Assembly (NCBI GenBank): GCA_002862465.1
Contig: PKDD01000141.1
Span: forward strand, 1 to 46,610
Direction of reading: 5' to 3'
Length of the DNA stretch: 46,610 nucleotides
DNA from: Haliea sp.
GTDB lineage: Bacteria; Pseudomonadota; Gammaproteobacteria; Pseudomonadales; Halieaceae
Under the pieces are notes generated by a model, which was not told the DNA's origin, made no database searches, and worked only from the letters and a program-made list of their open reading frames with translations. The translations under genes were made by a program, and so were the position numbers. Shown here one piece after another: positions 324-13,353 of the stretch (the stretch's first letter is position 1; each line of letters opens with the position of its first letter).

Positions 324-1436
324 GTGGACGAGGGTCAATTTACAGTCTGGTGTCTGCTGGGGAAAAAAGCCGGCGATAATGCGCAGGTGCGCGCCTTGGC
401 TGCGGAACTGGGCGTTTATAGTGTAGAAAAGCTTATAACGGCGAGGCCTTGGGAGCTATTGAGTCATCTCGGCACTGCGCCGACGCTTGTGGGTATCGAT
501 CGGCGTCAATCCAGCAATCTGCAAGCTCCTTGGCCGGATATTGTCATCAGCGCTGGGCGCCGTAATGAGGCCGTAGCACGGTGGATTAGGCAGCAATCTG
601 GCGGACTCACTCGTCTTGTACATATTGGTCGTCCTTGGGCGCCCCTCTCCAGTTGGGATCTGATCGTGACAACGCCACAGTACTTCTTGCCACAGCAGGA
701 CAATATCCTGCACAACAGTCTGCCATTGCATAGTGTTTCTCGGGAAGCCTTGAGAAACGCCGAAAAGGAGCTGCGCCCGCAGTTGGCGAATCTTCCGCGG
801 CCCTGGTTGGCAGTACTTGTGGGTGGGGACAGCGGTCGCTTTGTAATGACTGGTGAGAAGGGTAGACGGTTGGGCGCGCTGGCTGCGAATCTTGCTGCCG
901 CCGCTGGCGGCTCCGTATTGTTGACCGACAGTGCGCGCACGCCCCGTGCGGTCGGAGATGCTTTGCAGGCGCAATTGGATGCGCCGAACTTCTGTTACCG
1001 TTGGGGTAGTGGCGGTGACAATCCTTATTATGGATTGTTGGCGCTGGCAGATGCTTTTGTGGTAACGGGCGAGTCCATGTCCATGTTAGGCGAAGCAGCA
1101 GATACGGGCCGACCGCTTTACATCTTTGATGTCGGAGATGGTGCAGTCCCCTGGTGGAAACTACCACACAGTTATCGCTACAAGCCACTGAGTCATCATT
1201 TTGCAATGCGCTTCGGCCCGGCCCGCATGCGGCGCGATATCGGTAACATGCAGAATACGTTGGTGCACGATGGTGGGGCAAAGTGGTTAGATTCTGAGAT
1301 GCTTGATTCTGCTGCAGTTGCGTTGAGAGCGACTACCGCATCTTCTTCTGCCTTCTCGCAGGAGGCCAGATCAGTTGCATACCATGAACTGAAACGGGCA
1401 GCGGATGCGGTCAGGCAGCTTGTGACAGCGCGCTGA
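324..1436 (+). CDS. ELM1-family (DUF1022) protein, GT-B-like
   Basis: 370 residues. The sequence matches the ELM1/DUF1022 family: an N-terminal LLGKKAGDNAQVRALAAEL segment, ISAGRRNEAVARWI near residue 75, HIGRPWAPLSSWDLIVTTPQ near 105, and a C-terminal TGESMSMLGEAADTGRPLYI segment. The plant namesake acts in mitochondrial fission; the bacterial proteins are uncharacterised, look like GT-B-fold proteins and often sit near lipid or envelope genes. GTG at 324 is the start, with AAGGA about six bases upstream. It runs towards the next glycosyltransferase-like gene and their 3' ends overlap by 26 bases. A role in glycan or glycolipid assembly is inferred from neighbours only. Confidence 0.8.
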   Translation: MDEGQFTVWCLLGKKAGDNAQVRALAAELGVYSVEKLITARPWELLSHLGTAPTLVGIDRRQSSNLQAPWPDIVISAGRRNEAVARWIRQQSGGLTRLVHIGRPWAPLSSWDLIVTTPQYFLPQQDNILHNSLPLHSVSREALRNAEKELRPQLANLPRPWLAVLVGGDSGRFVMTGEKGRRLGALAANLAAAAGGSVLLTDSARTPRAVGDALQAQLDAPNFCYRWGSGGDNPYYGLLALADAFVVTGESMSMLGEAADTGRPLYIFDVGDGAVPWWKLPHSYRYKPLSHHFAMRFGPARMRRDIGNMQNTLVHDGGAKWLDSEMLDSAAVALRATTASSSAFSQEARSVAYHELKRAADAVRQLVTAR

Positions 1437-2355
1437 GGGGGTGCAGCGGCGCTGAGGGTAAATCGGGTGTATTGGTGAGGATTTCAAAGGCGTCATGGCG
1501 CACATGGTTCTGTGCCATTTCACTGCGCAGGAAGTCCTCGCTAATCTTGCCTTCTTGCATGCATTCTTTAAGTAGGCCGAAGAAGAAGGCTTCCTGATTG
1601 CGGTCAGGGTGTTGTTTATAGTTGCCCAAGAAAGCGTACTCGCCAAAGAGTTTGCGGCGCGCGCGCATGATCCAGGCTGCGGGAGGAAACAAGCGAAAGC
1701 GCTCCGCTGGGCGCCAGTCGGTAGGTAGACCCGTCTTCCATGGTTGAGTTTTACGGCGCGTGGTGTGCAGTAATTTAGTCTCCAGAGAGAACTTGTCGAA
1801 ATCATTCCACTGGGTCTCGAAAAAACCGATTGTGGTTTGATCCTCTTCCTTCAGACATATCCAAGGTTGGTAGTCTTGGGTGAAATCGAACATGGCTTCA
1901 AAGCTTTTGTGGGCATCCCAATGGCGGAGCTTGCTGCAATCAAGCAACATAACACTACTTGCCATGCATTTGTCGATAAGGCCCTTGGGGCCAGAGCGCA
2001 TGCGGCACATGATGGCATTATCTTCCATATTCCGGCTAAGTAGCGCCCAAATATCTGCAGTGGCGAAGATGTCGGGGTCTATGACTACAGCGCGGCCTTC
2101 GTAATTCATAAGCTGTGGCGGCATGAACCGTGTTGGCGTGAACGACTGTAAATCGTCGTTCAGCCATGTGCGCTTGACGCCGTCACGAAGGTACTCCTGA
2201 CCTTCTCTCGCAGCGAAAAAAGGGTAATCCCGGCTGTCCATAATCTGCACATCAAACTTATCATTGTTGAGCGAATAACGCCGCAGGGCGTGCTCGGCAA
2301 CGATGGCACCGGTAATCTGCTTTTGGTTCGTTTGAATGAATACAGAGGCTTTCAT
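1411..2355 (-). CDS. GT-A-like glycosyltransferase-like protein
   Basis: 314 residues, complete. The N-terminus VFIQTNQKQITGAIVAEHA, a DPD triplet at residues 93-95 (a DxD-type nucleotide-sugar/metal site) and the block LLHTTRRKTQPWKTGLP around 195-211 suggest a family 8-like GT-A transferase. It is very similar throughout to the protein at 6434-7348 and to the partial gene at 1-188, so the locus holds three paralogues. No signal peptide or membrane segment is seen, so it should be cytoplasmic. It is the last gene of a leftward run starting at 5236, with a 129-base gap before it; no good ribosome-binding site precedes the ATG. The sugar donor and acceptor cannot be read from the sequence. Confidence 0.7.
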   Translation of the reverse strand: MKASVFIQTNQKQITGAIVAEHALRRYSLNNDKFDVQIMDSRDYPFFAAREGQEYLRDGVKRTWLNDDLQSFTPTRFMPPQLMNYEGRAVVIDPDIFATADIWALLSRNMEDNAIMCRMRSGPKGLIDKCMASSVMLLDCSKLRHWDAHKSFEAMFDFTQDYQPWICLKEEDQTTIGFFETQWNDFDKFSLETKLLHTTRRKTQPWKTGLPTDWRPAERFRLFPPAAWIMRARRKLFGEYAFLGNYKQHPDRNQEAFFFGLLKECMQEGKISEDFLRSEMAQNHVRHDAFEILTNTPDLPSAPLHPLSALSQAA

Positions 2356-2484: not shown

Positions 2485-3438
2485 TTATTTAAAAATACCA
2501 CGGCGGTAAAGGCGCCAAAAAAATCCCCATAGGTGAATTAGCGGCGCACGCCTGACCGACTCGGGGATGGAGATTTCCTCCCCAGAGTGACGCTCGAGTT
2601 TCCAGGCTATGTAATCTAGTCCGCCGTCGAAAGTAAATAGTGCCTTGAGCAGCCGGGCAATAGATAGAAGCTTACCTTGGACCCGTCGAAGCGCCCATGC
2701 TAAGTTCGTGAAGAAGCGCCTGATGTAGCCAATGTGGATGCGGTAATGGAGTTCCTCTCCTTGCATGTATAAGGAGAAAGAGGGTCCCAGATCGCCTGCA
2801 TGATGCCGCGTCAGTGAGGCATAGAAATCTCGGGAAGTGTTTGCCAATTCCTGCGCTCGCCCACTGCGCTCTGTTCGTAGTTCTGTCGCATAGCTTAGGC
2901 TTAGCGCTTGCTCCCACAGAGTCAGAAGGTTGCCCTGAGCGGGCAGAGCGGGCAGCGCCTTTCGCAGTAGGGTATGCGCTGCCTGCGTGAGAGCTTTTTC
3001 TACATGCTCCTGCACTACGGTGTCTCGCGCGGACAAGATGTGAGTGGGTTGCGCGAAGCGGCCCCATATATAGGATTCAAACCAAGCTGAAGAGCATCCC
3101 CGCTGGAAATCACGCAAGGAAATGACGGTGACCTTGCTACGCAGGGTCCTATTTTTATTCCGAGTATCTAGCGCCTCCTGCTCGGCATAAAAGACATTGG
3201 GCGGTAGTAGCCAGTTGGCCGCCGCTAGCAGAGGACCCCGATAGGCTGTTTGATAGTCATCGCAGATCAGATACAGATCCAGCAGTCCGTTATAGATATC
3301 GCCGCTGCGCAGGCAGGAGCCATACAATAATGTACAGCAGATGGCGCCGTGATGACGGGCATTAAGCTGCACCAATAATGCCGCCAGCGTTGGATCTGAT
3401 GCTGCGTCGGGGCCAGCTACCTTTGGATAGTTACTCAC
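2485..3438 (-). CDS. TAM41/Mmp37-like nucleotidyltransferase (candidate CDP-diacylglycerol synthase)
   Basis: 317 residues. The layout follows mitochondrial TAM41, which makes CDP-diacylglycerol from phosphatidate and CTP. It has LLYGS at residues 37-41 (the polymerase-beta-type G-S motif), LLDLYLICDD at 52-61 (TAM41 has LDFVFVVDD here), VFYAE near 82, VTVISLRDF near 103, W119 with YIWGRFAQPTHIL at 123-135 (TAM41: LYIAGRLQKPVKI), and LSYATELR near 181 (TAM41: LSYSGDFR). The GTG start overlaps the TGA of the upstream diacylglycerol kinase gene by four bases, implying translational coupling and linking it to the enzyme that makes phosphatidate. Comparison with TAM41 is from memory. A plain nucleotidyltransferase with another substrate is the alternative. 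Confidence 0.65.
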   Translation of the reverse strand: MSNYPKVAGPDAASDPTLAALLVQLNARHHGAICCTLLYGSCLRSGDIYNGLLDLYLICDDYQTAYRGPLLAAANWLLPPNVFYAEQEALDTRNKNRTLRSKVTVISLRDFQRGCSSAWFESYIWGRFAQPTHILSARDTVVQEHVEKALTQAAHTLLRKALPALPAQGNLLTLWEQALSLSYATELRTERSGRAQELANTSRDFYASLTRHHAGDLGPSFSLYMQGEELHYRIHIGYIRRFFTNLAWALRRVQGKLLSIARLLKALFTFDGGLDYIAWKLERHSGEEISIPESVRRAPLIHLWGFFWRLYRRGIFK

Positions 3439-4400
3439 AGGCGTAAAAATGCCAAAGGTTCGCTAGCGCTGATAGTGGCGGCTTGAGCAACCTTCAGGAG
3501 TTCTCCATCCAGATTGATTTTACCCGCCATTTTAAGCGTTACACTGTTGGTATTGTGGCTGTGGTAGCCCGAAGCCGGCACCGCGTTGCGACTGTGGCGA
3601 CCGCGCACAATAGATAAGAAAGTGCGGGCAAAGCGAGTACAGCCTTGCTCCATGAGTGTCAGTCGAATGGAGCCAGGTTCTGTGCTCCAGAAAGGGCGCA
3701 TACCGAAGGCCAGACGCTGCAGGGTGCTCACGGCGAGAATTAGGGTGCTGTATTGGGTGGGATTACTGCTCCCGAGAGATAGTGTGATGTTGACCTGCTG
3801 GTTGAAGTCTGGGTCATTACGCACGACCCCCCACACAGTTCGCAGTGTGCCTAGGGCGAGGCTAAAATCATCGCGCAGGCCCCGTGAATGAATTTCCTTG
3901 TGGGCGTATTCCGTGCCGTGAATGACTGCCCCACTGCCGAGAAACATTCCATAGCGTTCTGGTTGGCCGCCGTCTATGACTACCCGTAAGATTGCACGTT
4001 GGGCGATTTTATTAGTAGTGTTGCGGTTGCCCTTACTCCACCGGCAGAAGTCGGCTACCGCCTTATTGAGCGAGCCCCGCAGGCCTATGTCGCCCGCACT
4101 CATGTTTGCGGTGCCACCCGGCAGCAGAGCGATGAGAGGCATTGTTCCAAAGGCTTTCGATTCTAAAAGGGCACCAAGAATGGCAGCCACTGTCCCGTCG
4201 CCGCCATTGATTGCCAGTACTTGAATATTCAACTCGGCAAGCTCTTGCAGTACCAGCGGGATATCAGCGGTACAGTGGGTGATACGGTGGTGAATGTTTG
4301 GATAGCGTTCAATGCGCGAGCGGATACCCTCGAATTGATCACGATTATGGCCGCTGTTGGGGTTGCTTATCAGGCCTATTGGGCCTGCCATCGGACTCAC
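3435..4400 (-). CDS. Diacylglycerol kinase family (DAGK catalytic domain) protein
   Basis: 321 residues. The DAGK/sphingosine-kinase/YegS fold is marked by ISNPNSG at residues 11-17, the ATP-binding INGGDGT at 64-70 and LLPGGTANM at 92-100, with a C-terminal lipid-binding half ending in INLDGELL. These enzymes phosphorylate diacylglycerol or a related lipid with ATP at the inner membrane face, giving phosphatidate. The GTG start overlaps the TGA of the upstream DUF3108-like gene by four bases; its own TGA overlaps the next GTG in the same way. ATG at 4389-4391 is a possible internal start. The substrate is not certain: family members also act on other lipids. Confidence 0.85.
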   Translation of the reverse strand: MSPMAGPIGLISNPNSGHNRDQFEGIRSRIERYPNIHHRITHCTADIPLVLQELAELNIQVLAINGGDGTVAAILGALLESKAFGTMPLIALLPGGTANMSAGDIGLRGSLNKAVADFCRWSKGNRNTTNKIAQRAILRVVIDGGQPERYGMFLGSGAVIHGTEYAHKEIHSRGLRDDFSLALGTLRTVWGVVRNDPDFNQQVNITLSLGSSNPTQYSTLILAVSTLQRLAFGMRPFWSTEPGSIRLTLMEQGCTRFARTFLSIVRGRHSRNAVPASGYHSHNTNSVTLKMAGKINLDGELLKVAQAATISASEPLAFLRL

Positions 4401-5236
4401 AATTTGGATTCCCTCATCGTCACGGATTTCAGATTGATTTCGGTGGCGCCAATGCGTGGCGCCCGACCACGTATTTGCAGTGGTAAGCCAGTAGCGCGGT
4501 CGAAGAATAAAATAATCTCTCCATCAAGTCCAAGTAGCCTGAAGTCATCTTTTTTCTCTAATATCGTGTCTGGTTCAGCGTGTATGGCCACTGCCAATGT
4601 TTCGCGCATGCCAGAGACGCGATCTGCCCCCGTAATGTTATAGTTAACCGAGATCGGGATGCCACTGCCACTAGTAAGATGTACTCGATAGAAGTTCAAA
4701 TCGGTGTGAACCAGCACGTCCATAGATTCGCCCGGTCCTTTTGCTTGTAGCTGTTGTGCTAGAAGCAGCAGCATGTAGGGCGTTGTCACCACGATTTCGC
4801 TCTTTGAAGAAGGATAAGCAAGCTCTGTCCGCGATGTAGCTGGCCAATCCTGCTGCGGAGTATCGTCATTGGTCAGTGGCTCGCGACGTTCACGAACCAG
4901 AAAGTCAGCTTCATACTCGTAAGATTTTACCCGTTGTTGTTTGCCTTGGCTCAGGCGCGATCGATTGAGAGCCCTGCCCGTAGCAGGCTCAAAATTCACT
5001 TTCACTTGCTCTGAATTATTCACCACAGAGCTCTTAACGTCTAACTCCCAGACCCCTGGATCATCGGTAGCGGCAAGCACTTCGATGCGGGACCGCGCAG
5101 TGGCCCAAAATGCTTTTTGCTCAAACTCCACTGCACGCCACTCAGGCAACTGCGGGGCTTCGATGCCAGAGGCCTGAGTAACGCTTGCTAGTGCCGCGAC
5201 CGCGTTGATGAGGAGAATTCTTGCTAGCTTAGTCAT
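4397..5236 (-). CDS. Secreted DUF3108-like protein
   Basis: 279 residues. The N-terminus MTKLARILLINAVAALASV, followed by a likely cleavage after TQASG, is a Sec signal peptide, so the protein is periplasmic or outer-membrane associated. The body is predicted mostly beta, with RATGLPLQIRGRAPRIG near the C-terminus resembling the end of DUF3108 proteins, which have no established biochemical function. It is the first gene of the leftward chain and is coupled to the diacylglycerol kinase by a GTGA overlap. It has no catalytic motif I recognise; a binding or transport role for the locus product is only a guess. The family assignment itself is moderate. Confidence 0.6.
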   Translation of the reverse strand: MTKLARILLINAVAALASVTQASGIEAPQLPEWRAVEFEQKAFWATARSRIEVLAATDDPGVWELDVKSSVVNNSEQVKVNFEPATGRALNRSRLSQGKQQRVKSYEYEADFLVRERREPLTNDDTPQQDWPATSRTELAYPSSKSEIVVTTPYMLLLLAQQLQAKGPGESMDVLVHTDLNFYRVHLTSGSGIPISVNYNITGADRVSGMRETLAVAIHAEPDTILEKKDDFRLLGLDGEIILFFDRATGLPLQIRGRAPRIGATEINLKSVTMRESKL

Positions 5237-5510: not shown

Positions 5511-6434
5511 ATGCATATGATTATCAAACGACTGATCAAATGGTTGGTACGGGCGATTTCGGTATTTTTACCAGAGGCTGAAGCGCATCAGCTGCAGCGC
5601 TGGCGTCGAGGCCGAGAGGAATTCTGGAAATACAGCAACTGCCAGTACATCTTTGCTTCTTATGGCAAGAGCGGCAGAACGTGGGTGCGGGTTATGATCT
5701 CGCGTTACTATCAGTTGGTCTACAAGTTGCCCGACAACATTCTAATGGGGTTTGATAATTTCACTCGGCTCGACGGGGATATCCCTAAAATCTTTTTTAC
5801 TCATGATAACTATCTGCGGGGCTACACGGGTAATATCGACTCGAAGAAAGATTTTTATAGCAAGAAGACAGTACTGCTGGTGCGTAACCCTATCGATGTC
5901 GCTGTGTCCCAGTTTTTTCAATGGAAATATCGCATGCGGCCTGAAAAGAAGGCTATGAATCACTATCCCGCTCATGAAGCAGATATTTCGGTCTACGATT
6001 TTGTCAAGGACGAAAATCAGGGGCTCTCGCACATAATTGAATTTCTCAATAACTGGGCTACTGAGTTGCCGAAAATTCAGAATTTGCTTGTGGTGCGGTA
6101 CGAGGACCTGCGCTCACATCCTGAGCAGGAAATGGCCAAAATAGTGGCATTTCTGGGGCTTGAGGTTAATACAGCCTATCTTCGAGATACGGCAGAGTTC
6201 GCTTCCGTCGAGAATCTGCGTAAGAAAGAACAGGACAATTATTTCTGGCGTAGTGGCAGTCGCGTGCAGGCTAAAGACGTCAATGACCCTAATACGTTCA
6301 AGGTACGAAAAGCCAAGGTCGGCGGTTACCGCGATTATTTTGACGACGATCAAGTGGAAGAATTGGACGCCATGGTAGATGCGTTCCTCTTGCCCGCGTT
6401 CGGTTATACCAGCACAGAAATAACGGAGGTTTAG
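5511..6434 (+). CDS. PAPS-dependent sulfotransferase
   Basis: 307 residues. The two PAPS-binding signatures of the sulfotransferase family are present: the 5'-phosphosulfate loop YGKSGRTWVR at residues 51-60 and the 3'-phosphate site RNPIDVAVSQ at 125-134; VVRYEDLRSHPEQ follows near 200, as in Sulfotransfer_1 domains. The enzyme should move sulfate from PAPS to a hydroxyl or amine of a small molecule, lipid or glycan. The N-terminus (LIKWLVRAISVFL) is hydrophobic and basic and may touch the membrane. AGGGGG lies about eight bases before the ATG. Its TAG shares one base with the GTG of the following glycosyltransferase, so it opens a three-gene operon. The acceptor is unknown. Confidence 0.88.
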   Translation: MHMIIKRLIKWLVRAISVFLPEAEAHQLQRWRRGREEFWKYSNCQYIFASYGKSGRTWVRVMISRYYQLVYKLPDNILMGFDNFTRLDGDIPKIFFTHDNYLRGYTGNIDSKKDFYSKKTVLLVRNPIDVAVSQFFQWKYRMRPEKKAMNHYPAHEADISVYDFVKDENQGLSHIIEFLNNWATELPKIQNLLVVRYEDLRSHPEQEMAKIVAFLGLEVNTAYLRDTAEFASVENLRKKEQDNYFWRSGSRVQAKDVNDPNTFKVRKAKVGGYRDYFDDDQVEELDAMVDAFLLPAFGYTSTEITEV

Positions 6435-7348
6435 TGGCAGATAAATGCGTCTTTATTCACACCAATGAGCGGCAATGGCTGGGTGCTCTGGTTGCGGAAT
6501 ATTCTTTTCGGCGCAATTCAGCTAATGCCGACAAGTTTGACGTTAAATTTATTCATACTCAAGATTACCCCTATCTCAGCGCCAAGGAAGGTCAGACCTT
6601 TTTGCGCGGCGGTACTGAGCGCGTTTGGTATATGAACGATTTGCAATCCTTCACGCCACTTCGATTTCTACCGCCAAAGTTAATGAACTGGCAGGGGCGT
6701 GCGGTGCTGACCGATCCAGACATTTTCGCAGCGGGTGATATTTACGAGCTCTTACAGAGGGACATGAAGGGTGCCGCCGTTATGGGTCGCCGTCGATCAG
6801 GAAGCCAGCGGAAAGCTTCTGAAGTTGCCACTAGTGTGATGTTGATGGACTGTGCGCGTCTGCAGCATTGGGATGCCGAATTGCAGTTTGAGCAGATGTT
6901 CCGCGCTGAAATAGACTATAAAAAGTGGATGGTGCTTGCTTACGATGACCCCGCTAATATTGGCTATCTCGAGGACTGTTGGAACGACTTTGATCATCTC
7001 GATGCCAATACGCGCTTATTGCACAATACAAAGCGCAAAACTCAGCCATGGAAAACAGGTTTGCCGGTAGATTACACGCCGGCTGAAAAATTCAAGGGTA
7101 ACCCGCTGCTCGCTGCTGCCAACAATTTTCGGATAAAGATGTTTGGTCAATATGGTCTGCTCGGTCATTACAAAAAACACCCGGACCTTCGGCAAGAGCA
7201 ATTTTTTTTCGGGCTGCTGAAAGAGTGCCTGAATTCAGGGCATATCAGCGAGGATCTTGTGCGAGCCGAAATCAGCAGAAACCATGTGCGCCATGACGCT
7301 TTTGAAGTGTTAGACCGCACCCCTAATTTAGAGGGGAAAGCGGCGTGA
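6434..7348 (+). CDS. GT-A-like glycosyltransferase-like protein (second complete paralogue)
   Basis: 304 residues. Close paralogue of the protein at 1411-2355: CVFIHTNERQWLGALVAEYS at the N-terminus, the DxD-type DPD at residues 94-96, the nearly identical block LLHNTKRKTQPWKTGLPVDY near 196, and the end FFFGLLKECLNSGHISEDL. No signal peptide or membrane helix. The GTG start at 6434 has ACGGAGG upstream and overlaps the sulfotransferase stop by one base. Its own TGA overlaps the next gene's GTG (GTGA). The tight pairing suggests that the sulfotransferase, this transferase and the oxygenase act on one product. The sugar donor is unknown. Confidence 0.72.
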   Translation: MADKCVFIHTNERQWLGALVAEYSFRRNSANADKFDVKFIHTQDYPYLSAKEGQTFLRGGTERVWYMNDLQSFTPLRFLPPKLMNWQGRAVLTDPDIFAAGDIYELLQRDMKGAAVMGRRRSGSQRKASEVATSVMLMDCARLQHWDAELQFEQMFRAEIDYKKWMVLAYDDPANIGYLEDCWNDFDHLDANTRLLHNTKRKTQPWKTGLPVDYTPAEKFKGNPLLAAANNFRIKMFGQYGLLGHYKKHPDLRQEQFFFGLLKECLNSGHISEDLVRAEISRNHVRHDAFEVLDRTPNLEGKAA

Positions 7349-8061
7349 ACTACATCAATATTGAGAAGCTACGTAATCTAAGCCGCCACGAATTCTTGGC
7401 TGTTAATCCCTATCCATATTTCAACACTGAAGGGGTGTTGACAGGTTCAGGCTTCCAAGATTTGTTGGCAAATATGCCGCCGCAGAAGATGTTCGAACAG
7501 AAGTTTGGTTATGAACGTCGGGCCGGGCAGGCTCCGCATGATCGGTATTCGTTGGAATATACGGCGGATATGCCAGTGCCTAAACCTTGGAAGGAATTTA
7601 TCACTGAGCTATGCTCAGATGCTTACCGCAAGGAAATCGAACGCTTGCTCGGCGCCAACAAGGCAGAGTTTCGTTTTCATTGGCACTATACGCCGAGCGG
7701 TGCAGACGTCTCACCGCATTGCGATGCAAAACGTGAATATGGTTCGCATCTTTTTTATTTTAATTCGACTGAAGATTGGGACCCGGCATGGGGCGGGTCA
7801 ACGCTGGTATTGGATGACGGCGGCCGGCTGGATTATAACTCGGCCCCCGACATCAAAGAATTCGATAACGTTATTGAGTGCGACTGCCTAGGAAACTACA
7901 GTTCTCTTATAATGCGTGCGGATCACGCTTGGCATGCGGTGAAGCCGATTGAATGTCCCGAGGATCGCTTGCGCCGAGTTTTCATTATCGTGGTCAACCC
8001 GAACTCTCTGTTTTGGAAGTTGCGTGATCGGCTCATAGGCAAAAAAATCCAGCGCTTTTGA
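7345..8061 (+). CDS. 2-oxoglutarate/Fe(II)-dependent oxygenase-like protein
   Basis: 238 residues. The double-stranded beta-helix iron site is visible: H125-x-D127 (SPHCDAKREY), the distal H197 in RADHAWHAVKP and a following arginine (RLRRVF near 208-211) to hold 2-oxoglutarate. WGGSTLVLDDGG near 149 is typical of prolyl-hydroxylase-like 2OG oxygenases. Such enzymes hydroxylate or desaturate a substrate using O2 and 2-oxoglutarate in the cytoplasm. Translation is coupled to the glycosyltransferase by the GTGA overlap at 7345-7348, with GAGGGG upstream. It is the last gene of the operon. The substrate is probably an intermediate of the same pathway, which is inferred. Confidence 0.78.
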   Translation: MNYINIEKLRNLSRHEFLAVNPYPYFNTEGVLTGSGFQDLLANMPPQKMFEQKFGYERRAGQAPHDRYSLEYTADMPVPKPWKEFITELCSDAYRKEIERLLGANKAEFRFHWHYTPSGADVSPHCDAKREYGSHLFYFNSTEDWDPAWGGSTLVLDDGGRLDYNSAPDIKEFDNVIECDCLGNYSSLIMRADHAWHAVKPIECPEDRLRRVFIIVVNPNSLFWKLRDRLIGKKIQRF

Positions 8062-11351: not shown

Positions 11352-12116
11352 ATGAGAAATCTGCAGGGGAAGCGCATTCTGGTTTGTGGCGGTGCCACCG
11401 GTATTGGCGCGGCTACAGTTCGCCGCCTGTGTGAAGAGGGAGCGCGTGTAGGGGTTGGCGACTTCAATATGGAAGCAGCTGAGGCTTTGATCAAAGAGTT
11501 GGATGGTGCCGGCTTCGAGGCTACGGCCTGGTACTTTGACCAGTCTGATCAGGCGAGCATTGCGGCTTTGGTCGATTCAGCGGTTGAACATTTTGGCCAG
11601 TTGGACGGCTTATTCGCCAATGTGGCAGATTTGCAGGCGGTGTTAGTGGATGGTGATATTGTTAGTAATGACAGCGCGATATGGGAGCGCACTCTTCTTG
11701 TTAATGTGGTTGGCACAGCGATGCTTTTACGTGCCGCATTGCCGCACATGCTCGAGCATGCCAGCGGATCTGTGGTCTTGACTTCGTCAGATGCAGCAGT
11801 GATCGGAGAGCCTGAGAGGCCGGCTTATGCCGCATCGAAAGCAGGGGTTAATTCGCTGTGCCGCCACGTTGCATCAAAGTGGGGCTCTAAAGGTATACGG
11901 TGCAATACTATATCGCCCGGCTTTGTGCTGACTGAGCAGTTGGACGCGAACATGAGTCAAGAAATCAAAGACGCTATGCTGAGGGGTGTACGGAGTCAGC
12001 GCCATGGTGCGCCACGGGACGTTGCCGGCGCAGTAGCGTTCTTACTGTCCGATGATGGCGAATGGGTCAACGGGCAGACTTGGCGCGTTAACGGCGGGGT
12101 CAGCTATGCTAACTAG
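11352..12116 (+). CDS. Short-chain dehydrogenase/reductase (SDR)
   Basis: 254 residues from ATG 11352; an upstream TTG at 11289 would add residues that precede the normal SDR start. The Rossmann motif GGATGIG is at residues 13-19, the catalytic S145/S146, Y159 and K163 are in TSSDAA and YAASK, and the end GEWVNGQTWRVNGG is the classical SDR finish. It should oxidise or reduce a hydroxyl/keto group with NAD(P)(H). ANVAD replaces the usual NNAG at about residue 89, an unusual substitution. It begins a rightward cassette with the SRPBCC and EthD-like genes, which suggests a catabolic or modification pathway. Confidence 0.88.
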   Translation: MRNLQGKRILVCGGATGIGAATVRRLCEEGARVGVGDFNMEAAEALIKELDGAGFEATAWYFDQSDQASIAALVDSAVEHFGQLDGLFANVADLQAVLVDGDIVSNDSAIWERTLLVNVVGTAMLLRAALPHMLEHASGSVVLTSSDAAVIGEPERPAYAASKAGVNSLCRHVASKWGSKGIRCNTISPGFVLTEQLDANMSQEIKDAMLRGVRSQRHGAPRDVAGAVAFLLSDDGEWVNGQTWRVNGGVSYAN

Positions 12117-12154
12117 TGGCTCAGTCTATACCTGTCATCCAAAGGAGTTTGAGA

Positions 12155-12613
12155 ATGATTACCCCTAGCAGTGTCTCGAGTGAAGAAGTCGTCATCCATG
12201 CGCCAGCTAAGGTGGTTTGGGATGTCATTCTTGATTTTGCCAACTACGGCCTTTGGAATACGTTTTGCCCAAGTATGAAGGGCGAGGCGGTCATTGGTTC
12301 ACCGCTTGAAATGCAGGTCGATTTGGGTAATGGGTTACAGGCGCAGGTGGAGTATGTGACAAAAATTGAACCCATCCACACCATTGTATGGTCTATGCAG
12401 AATAAACCTGGTGATCCGATACATGCGGATCGGATTCAGCGCATAACGCCTATTGATGACACCAGTTGCCGCTATTGCAGCATTGATGAATTTAGCGGCG
12501 AACTTTCCGGGCCTATGATTGAGCAGTTGGGCGAGCAGGTGGAGAAGGGTTTCAATGATTGCGCTTTGGGCTTAAAGGCACGGGCAGAAGCGCTTCATCG
12601 GGCGTCAGATTAA
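12155..12613 (+). CDS. SRPBCC-family (START-like) protein
   Basis: 152 residues from ATG 12155, which has AAGGAG eight bases upstream; a GTG at 12116 overlapping the SDR stop is less likely. EEVVIHAPAKVVWDVILDFANYGLWNTFCP is the classic opening of SRPBCC (polyketide cyclase/Bet v1-like) proteins, with a C-terminal helix at about residues 125-148. These bind hydrophobic ligands in a deep pocket and may act as cyclases, hydrolases or carriers. It is between SDR and EthD-like genes, consistent with handling a bulky hydrophobic substrate. The substrate is not known. Confidence 0.8.
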   Translation: MITPSSVSSEEVVIHAPAKVVWDVILDFANYGLWNTFCPSMKGEAVIGSPLEMQVDLGNGLQAQVEYVTKIEPIHTIVWSMQNKPGDPIHADRIQRITPIDDTSCRYCSIDEFSGELSGPMIEQLGEQVEKGFNDCALGLKARAEALHRASD

Positions 12614-12666
12614 TCTTCGGTTCTGTTGAGCGCATCCGTGGTTGTTATGAGGAAGAGTAGTACCAC

Positions 12667-13353
12667 ATGGAAAAGAGTATCTATTTTTTGCAGAAGCCCG
12701 CGGCGATCTCTATTGAAGCGTTCCGGGATAGCCTGCTCAATGAACTTGTGCCGCGGCTTCAGACGTTGGGCGCATCCCAGCTGACAATTAATGTCGCGGA
12801 TATTAACCGCAGTATACAAGAACAGGCTCCCAGCCGATTGATCGGCCCTTGGCAAACGCTGTCAGCTGCGGTGTCGTTTTGGCACGACTGTCTCGACCAG
12901 CGCGCGCCTCTTGAGGCAAGCTTGAGTGATATTAGCGACACTATCGTCGGCTATCTAGTAACAGAGTCTGTGCTGCAGGTGTTCGATCCCGTGTGGGAGG
13001 GCGGACGGCGTAGACCTGGTGTGACCCAGTTCGGTGCAAACGGCAAACCGCAAGACGTATCTGACCTTGCGTTTTATCACAACTGGCAGGTCGTGCATTC
13101 CACCTCTTCATTTGATTTGCACCCTCTGCGCTGGTCTTATGTGCGCAACGCCGTGGCTAGGCCATTGACCGTCGGTGCCCCCGCTTACCGGGCTATCGTT
13201 TGTGAGCATTTTCGCGAACTGGTTGACTTTACAGATGATCAGCGCTATTTCGGAACAGAGGAAGCGGTACTCGCTATGCTTAAAGAGCTGCCGGGCTTCT
13301 GTGACTTAAATAATATGGTCTCGCTGGCAATGAGTGAGTACTATTTTCGATAG
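12667..13353 (+). CDS. EthD-like (dimeric alpha-beta barrel) protein
   Basis: 228 residues. Two EthD-like halves can be seen: KSIYFLQKPAAISIEAFRDSLLNEL at the start and LAFYHNWQVVHSTSSFDLHPLRWSYVRNAV near 138-167, the latter with the YxxxWxxxH-like spacing and a YVRN motif common in EthD proteins; the end MVSLAMSEYYF is also typical. EthD-like proteins are small ferredoxin-like folds found in degradation clusters, some acting as dehydratases or tautomerases. GAGGAAGAG lies upstream of the ATG. Its place in a cassette with SDR, SRPBCC and TauD-like genes points to catabolism of an organic compound. Family assignment is moderate. Confidence 0.6.
   Translation: MEKSIYFLQKPAAISIEAFRDSLLNELVPRLQTLGASQLTINVADINRSIQEQAPSRLIGPWQTLSAAVSFWHDCLDQRAPLEASLSDISDTIVGYLVTESVLQVFDPVWEGGRRRPGVTQFGANGKPQDVSDLAFYHNWQVVHSTSSFDLHPLRWSYVRNAVARPLTVGAPAYRAIVCEHFRELVDFTDDQRYFGTEEAVLAMLKELPGFCDLNNMVSLAMSEYYFR

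Follow-up and report, generated by a model that had tools for sequence, protein, structure and literature searches.

A lipid kinase and a TAM41-like protein encoded side by side in Halieaceae are tied to sphingolipid genes and probably act on ceramide

The stretch of DNA analyzed here (the window, 46,610 nucleotides) is one whole contig of the draft genome of Haliea sp. (97.8% complete, 182 contigs). It encodes, on the minus strand, a lipid kinase and a protein resembling Tam41, accompanied by several genes that are conserved in related genomes. Two of the labels below refer to the Caulobacter proteins CpgB and CpgC, and Spt stands for serine palmitoyltransferase, the committed enzyme of sphingolipid synthesis.

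324–1436, plus strand: Mito_fiss_Elm1 family protein (PF06258, E 8.8e-59), conserved neighbor
1411–2355, minus strand: downstream gene without a Pfam family, conserved neighbor
2485–3438, minus strand: TAM41-like nucleotidyltransferase of the CpgC type, proposed CTP:ceramide-1-phosphate cytidylyltransferase (PF09139, Foldseek, co-occurrence with Spt)
3435–4400, minus strand: DAGK_cat lipid kinase of the CpgB type, proposed ceramide kinase (PF00781, E 1.1e-12, and kinase-profile score)
4397–5236, minus strand: first gene of the unit, without a Pfam match; signal-peptide-like N-terminal helix and a barrel-like predicted fold, mostly beta
5511–6434, plus strand: sulfotransferase (PF00685, E 7e-23), conserved neighbor and candidate head-group modifier
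6434–7348, plus strand: conserved neighbor with a very weak GT8 match (PF01501, E 0.13, under the cut-off)
7345–8061, plus strand: 2OG-Fe(II) oxygenase-like protein (PF13640, E 0.002, under the cut-off), conserved neighbor

The ORFs of the kinase (321 amino acids) and the TAM41-like protein (317 amino acids) both start with GTG, and the stop codon of the former shares four bases with the start codon of the latter (GTGA on the minus strand); an earlier note on this DNA had pointed out this overlap and read the kinase gene as DAGK. The first gene shares four bases with the kinase start in the same manner, and the unit consists of three genes, not two. The structure model of the first gene product (pLDDT 89.6) finds its top Foldseek match in Brucella DUF1849 (6ntr, E 1.6e-5, TM about 0.5), with weaker matches to RseB (E 0.026) and LolA (E 0.078); from this likeness of fold, one might guess that the protein is possibly a periplasmic partner or a lipid carrier.

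Conservation of the unit was assessed in loci from 29 of the 38 other Halieaceae genomes with a match to the TAM41-like protein; loci L032–L049, which come in part from the same genomes, were left out of this count. The kinase gene lies directly upstream of the TAM41-like gene in 28 of the 29 loci, so that the arrangement cannot be put down to chance, and the first gene is likewise present in 28; the exception, locus L022, begins at a contig end. The overlap itself is not universal (for example, there is a gap of 44 bases in L010). The Elm1 family (PF06258) takes its name from mitochondrial fission, and several of its members are encoded beside sulfotransferases, at 324–1436 in the window, at 12003–13106 and 18176–19297 in L032, and in the genome G115; a glycosyltransferase-like role appears likely for them.

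The protein encoded at 2485–3438 contains the motifs YGS (residues 39–41), LLDLYLICDD, VTVIS, YIWGRFAQP, and LSYATELR, by which the earlier note had likened it to TAM41, naming a structure comparison and a search with the Tam41 family profile as checks. In the profile search, the match to PF09139 (Tam41_Mmp37; E 2.9e-5) scores 24 bits, right at the curated cut-off of 24, and covers only residues 101–191 (91 residues). The same Pfam model recognizes 3 of 28 diverse members of the family at E ≤ 0.1 and has matches in 2 of 398 genomes of the phylum and in none of 14 control genomes, Caulobacter vibrioides among them. No NCBIfam family matched the protein at E ≤ 1, and the single sequence retrieved no Tam41 from the PDB at E ≤ 10. 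A profile of 22 sequences of the family reached Tam41 (6ig2 and 6ig4) at E 0.24–0.29, ranked under a designed protein (E 0.036), and a broader profile of 28 sequences retrieved no Tam41 from the PDB at E ≤ 1.

The structure comparison gave a far clearer result. In a Foldseek search of the PDB with an AlphaFold model built on the alignment of these 22 sequences (mean pLDDT 86.7, pTM 0.84), the matches ranked 1–5 are all Tam41 (6ig2, 6ig4, and 7ecd; E 1.3e-8 to 3.2e-8), and the first matches to other proteins are aminoglycoside nucleotidyltransferases, from E 7.4e-4. Identity to the Tam41 structures is 15–16%, and TM-scores are 0.45–0.52 by query length and 0.51–0.59 by target length. According to this model, the window gene encodes a protein with the Tam41 fold, and, because sequence profiles miss the Tam41 structures at significant E-values and PF09139 recognizes only 3 of the 28 members, the catalytic identity rests on the fold. 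Five residues (K102, R127, P131, Y183, and R188) are invariant in the 28 members and identical in the Tam41 profile alignment; W125 and Q130, also invariant in the family, face A and K, respectively. All 28 members have the aspartate D54 that follows YGS, and at least 90% of them have a tyrosine at position 56; Tam41 is described as keeping only one of the three classical acidic residues of nucleotidyltransferases (PMC11646218). The window protein thus shares with the mitochondrial and Firmicutes Tam41 the overall fold, the best match among the PDB chains searched, and part of the motifs, but differs in its low identity, TM-scores of about 0.5, the limited extent of the Pfam match, and probably the substrate, ceramide-1-phosphate (see below).

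The link to sphingolipids comes from the distribution of Spt. When the Spt encoded beside the pair in L083, a locus from outside Halieaceae, was used as the query, there was one clear match in the Haliea sp. genome, on contig C72 (48% identity, E 1.6e-116). This protein scores 587.6 bits against the NCBIfam equivalog NF047599 (cut-off 500) and does not reach the thresholds of two sister models for serine palmitoyltransferase. In the PDB, its top ten matches all carry the name serine palmitoyltransferase (E 4e-118 to 4e-81), and an aminoketobutyrate ligase comes next (E 1e-57). Because the PDB and NCBIfam agree, the Spt label is sound. Another relative of Spt in this genome (L108) adjoins a gene that looks like biotin synthase and is therefore probably BioF. 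On C72, Spt is preceded by a gene for an acyl carrier protein (ACP); as this contig and the window both start within a gene of the same kind, the two probably abut.

Among 140 Halieaceae genomes, 39 have a match to the window TAM41-like protein and 41 have a clear orthologue of the Haliea sp. Spt (E ≤ 4e-187, at least 71% identity), cleanly set apart from the paralogues, the next matches being at E 1.2e-64 and 35% identity. Both genes are present in 39 genomes, Spt only in 2 (G033 and G123), the TAM41-like gene only in none, and neither in 99. Across the 398 genomes of the phylum, a family profile of the TAM41-like protein found matches in 27, and a 13-sequence Spt profile identified 36 genomes at 497 bits or more, with the next score at 327; 26 genomes have both, 1 the TAM41-like gene only, 10 Spt only, and 361 neither, with the qualification that at most 4–5 candidates per genome were scored in these two profile searches, so that single absences are not firm. 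The one genome with the TAM41-like gene and no clear Spt orthologue, G484, has a neighboring Spt-like gene at 29% identity. The ten genomes with Spt and no detected TAM41-like gene (G163, G226, G278, G294, G362, G368, G380, G407, G468, and G505) possibly produce sphingolipids that carry different head groups. Fisher's test for the co-occurrence gives p values of 1.2e-32 (Halieaceae) and 1.6e-31 (phylum), which are overstated given that related genomes are not independent, and the co-occurrence recurs across classes. The two genes share a contig at full length in 18 of the 39 Halieaceae genomes, from about 9 kb (G056) to 42 kb (G128) apart; in G117, the TAM41-like gene on the Spt contig is a fragment. 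Thus, by conservation and co-occurrence, the TAM41-like gene is tied to sphingolipid genes.

We further examined 26 loci around all matches in the phylum outside the Haliea sp. genome, of 16 kb each (11 kb for L089); 2 of the genomes belong to the same class and 24 to other classes of the phylum. Gene types were assigned by comparison with genes of L081, L083, L084, and L098, on which Pfam was run. In 25 of the 26 loci, the gene immediately preceding the TAM41-like gene on its strand encodes a DAGK-family kinase, with gaps of −553 to +204 bases, some ORF starts being over-extended. The functional pairing with a lipid kinase proposed in the earlier note is supported, as is its idea of a special lipid, in place of bulk phospholipid. 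Only at L089, which has a masked stretch, did the TAM41-like gene have no detected kinase neighbor. An Spt-like gene lies within the stretch in 16 loci, in 15 at 45% identity or more and in L106 at 29%; there is none within the stretch in L081, L089, L094, L096, L099, L100, L101, L103, L104, and L105. Of the 26 loci, 20 encode permeases resembling LptF/LptG and 7 a CDP-alcohol transferase of the CpgA type. Outside Halieaceae, the pair is accompanied by genes for Spt, ACP, a CerR-like protein, an acyl-AMP ligase, and LptF/G-like permeases. The acyl-AMP ligase passes the NCBIfam threshold for fatty acyl-AMP ligases; the names CerR and acyl-AMP ligase are our presumptive ones, from protein family, gene order, and the layout of the Caulobacter region. 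In the low-GC genomes of L090, L093, and L095, an ORF exceeding 1,900 amino acids beside Spt and ACP matches the acyl-AMP ligase, and its length suggests a large multidomain protein.

Such a pair has a counterpart in the sphingolipid region of Caulobacter crescentus, where CpgB and CpgC (CCNA_01218-01219, CC_1160-1161) are likewise a lipid kinase and a CDP-diacylglycerol-synthase-like protein (PMC11324152, PMC10331486). CpgB is reported to be a ceramide kinase by assay (PMC10331486). CpgC is needed between ceramide-1-phosphate and ceramide phosphoglycerate (CPG), by a mechanism described as unidentified (PMC12275187, PMC13228409, 2026 preprint), and a CDP-diacylglycerol-synthase-like InterPro domain has been noted in CC_1161 (PMC11324152). 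The Halieaceae pair probably corresponds to CpgB and CpgC, an analogy based on the order of the genes, the types of domains, and the literature rather than on alignment.

The kinase fits this correspondence. It has the DAGK_cat domain in common with soluble lipid kinases of the YegS and DgkB types, and its best PDB relatives are YegS (E 2.2e-7); however, the similarity to YegS is limited to approximately the first 115 residues, and scores against the NCBIfam YegS and DgkB-type models are far under the cut-offs (at best, 40.7 bits for a cut-off of 284). We built a profile from 14 kinases adjoining CpgC-like genes, none of them from Halieaceae and, to our knowledge, none the Caulobacter CpgB, with Spt in the same stretch for 10 of the 14. 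Against this profile, the window kinase scores 217.7 bits over the full length (model positions 2–320), whereas E. coli YegS scores 34.9 bits over positions 7–113. By these profile comparisons, the window kinase is a member of the same family as the kinases whose genes directly precede CpgC-like genes, and we infer that it is a ceramide kinase. It is the only match to PF00781 over the cut-off in the Haliea sp. genome; one weaker match (20.5 bits, cut-off 23.6) reads as an NAD kinase.

Other apparent components of a sphingolipid pathway are encoded elsewhere in Haliea sp.: contig C123 carries genes for a CerR-like protein, an acyl-AMP ligase, a lipid A-type acyltransferase, and a fatty acid hydroxylase. 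In the relative G115, 55 kb of the cluster were taken in three adjoining stretches (L138–L140), with genes named from Pfam and, for Elm1 and sulfotransferases, by similarity to scanned proteins. The cluster comprises the first gene of the unit, the kinase, the TAM41-like gene, Elm1-family and sulfotransferase genes, and an LptF/LptG-like pair; there follow an ABC transporter, ACP, Spt, a MurA-like gene, a metallophosphoesterase, an NTP transferase, and a GNAT protein, and, at the end, an O-antigen-ligase-like protein, the acyl-AMP ligase, a CerR-like protein, two lipid A-type acyltransferases, a fatty acid hydroxylase, and a glycosyltransferase. From its gene content, this cluster looks like a dedicated pathway for the assembly and export of a ceramide-based lipid. 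In both Haliea sp. (L143, 13573–14823; the copy on which Pfam was run) and G115 (L139, 12865–14418), the gene directly downstream of Spt is the EPSP synthase/MurA-like one.

In Caulobacter, CpgA acts only after CPG. Haliea sp. encodes three PF01066 CDP-alcohol transferases, two of which look like PgsA and PssA, and in a search for a CpgA-type protein with a six-sequence CpgA-like profile these three scored only 35.0, 34.7, and 13.4 bits, compared with 629 and 598.5 bits for two of the profile's own members rescored as a control; among the ORFs of the Halieaceae cluster that were scanned, the score was at most 5.7 bits. Nor did this CpgA-type search bring up an enzyme of Haliea sp. that would obviously use CDP-ceramide. 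For CpgD, only a half-length match at 36% identity was found in this genome, with a query judged CpgD-like from its sequence start. Compared with Caulobacter, Halieaceae show no CpgA-type protein among these transferases and ORFs and have an extra first gene as well as sulfotransferase and Elm1-family neighbors. Given that no CpgA-type gene was found and that the pair is bordered by sulfotransferases, the head group is probably not that of Caulobacter, and the Halieaceae product is probably not CPG2.

Taken together, we consider it rather probable that the pair represents the cpgB-cpgC of Halieaceae and converts ceramide, via ceramide-1-phosphate, to CDP-ceramide for the attachment of a head group and subsequent export, and is not a replacement for CdsA. 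The kinase would phosphorylate ceramide to ceramide-1-phosphate, and the TAM41-fold enzyme would combine ceramide-1-phosphate with CTP to yield CDP-ceramide and pyrophosphate, as Tam41 does with phosphatidate, a step proposed because it fits the fold, the gene order, and the published genetics. CDP-ceramide would then serve as the donor for the head group, which the sulfotransferases, the Elm1-family and glycosyltransferase-like proteins, and the metallophosphoesterase might complete, and the LptF/LptG-like permeases together with the ABC protein of the cluster may help to export the finished lipid.

The earlier note had read the pair as a route from diacylglycerol through phosphatidate to CDP-diacylglycerol that bypasses or supplements CdsA. 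Such a route would accord with the fold and the PF09139 and PF00781 matches, and Tam41 homologues have been described in firmicutes and proteobacteria, with a bacterial version making CDP-diacylglycerol (PMC11646218). It nevertheless appears improbable, as it leaves the close association with Spt unexplained and CdsA is already present in Haliea sp., with one match in the genome; we rejected the CdsA bypass on these two grounds. The kinase, with its poor YegS/DgkB scores and full-length match to the CpgC-adjacent family, together with the tie to Spt and the reported activity of the Caulobacter kinase on ceramide (PMC10331486), indicates ceramide-1-phosphate rather than phosphatidate as the substrate, so that the earlier reading most likely had the right proteins and the wrong lipid.

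A sphingolipid pair could also perform other chemistry on the TAM41 fold, using another nucleotide, joining ceramide-1-phosphate to a preformed CDP-activated head group, or activating a later intermediate. The description of the CpgC reaction as unidentified (PMC12275187, PMC13228409), the results of the CpgA search, which made no consumer of CDP-ceramide evident in Haliea sp., and the substitutions facing the invariant W125 and Q130 all leave room for this; yet the five residues shared with Tam41 argue for retained nucleotidyl transfer, and we regard a departure of this kind as somewhat unlikely. Finally, with sulfotransferase and Elm1-family genes flanking it in Halieaceae, the pair might be a mere neighbor, part of a locus for a sulfated surface glycan within the sphingolipid cluster. 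This seems highly improbable given the company that the pair keeps outside Halieaceae (Spt, ACP, the CerR-like protein, acyl-AMP ligase, and LptF/G-like genes) and the co-occurrence with Spt, which extends to genomes in which the two are not neighbors.

The fold and the distribution of the TAM41-like protein thus provide a concrete, testable candidate reaction for CpgC, whose step in the phosphosphingolipid pathway of Caulobacter has lacked an explanation; the idea of an NDP-activated ceramide has been put forward already (PMC11324152). In a partial literature library, the papers listed for Halieaceae together with sphingolipids did not use the family name, those listed for CDP-ceramide did not contain that term, and, of 108 matches on sulfated sphingolipids of marine bacteria, the ten listed did not look relevant from their titles and opening abstract lines. 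The module is now placed in 39 of the 140 sampled genomes of Halieaceae, a marine gammaproteobacterial family, and the findings caution against labeling genes of this kind as phosphatidate cytidylyltransferase. The presence of a CpgA-type gene in 7 of the 26 outside loci suggests that the kinase and the TAM41-like protein form a core that lineages couple to different head groups. A bolder and more doubtful possibility, offered tentatively, is that CpgC-type proteins in general are CTP:ceramide-1-phosphate cytidylyltransferases that, in Halieaceae, feed the synthesis of a sulfated ceramide-anchored glycolipid exported by the LptF/G-like and ABC proteins. If so, CDP-ceramide would be a new activated lipid, the sphingolipid counterpart of CDP-diacylglycerol made by a relative of TAM41, and the sulfated glycolipid of Halieaceae would be an analogue of lipopolysaccharide.
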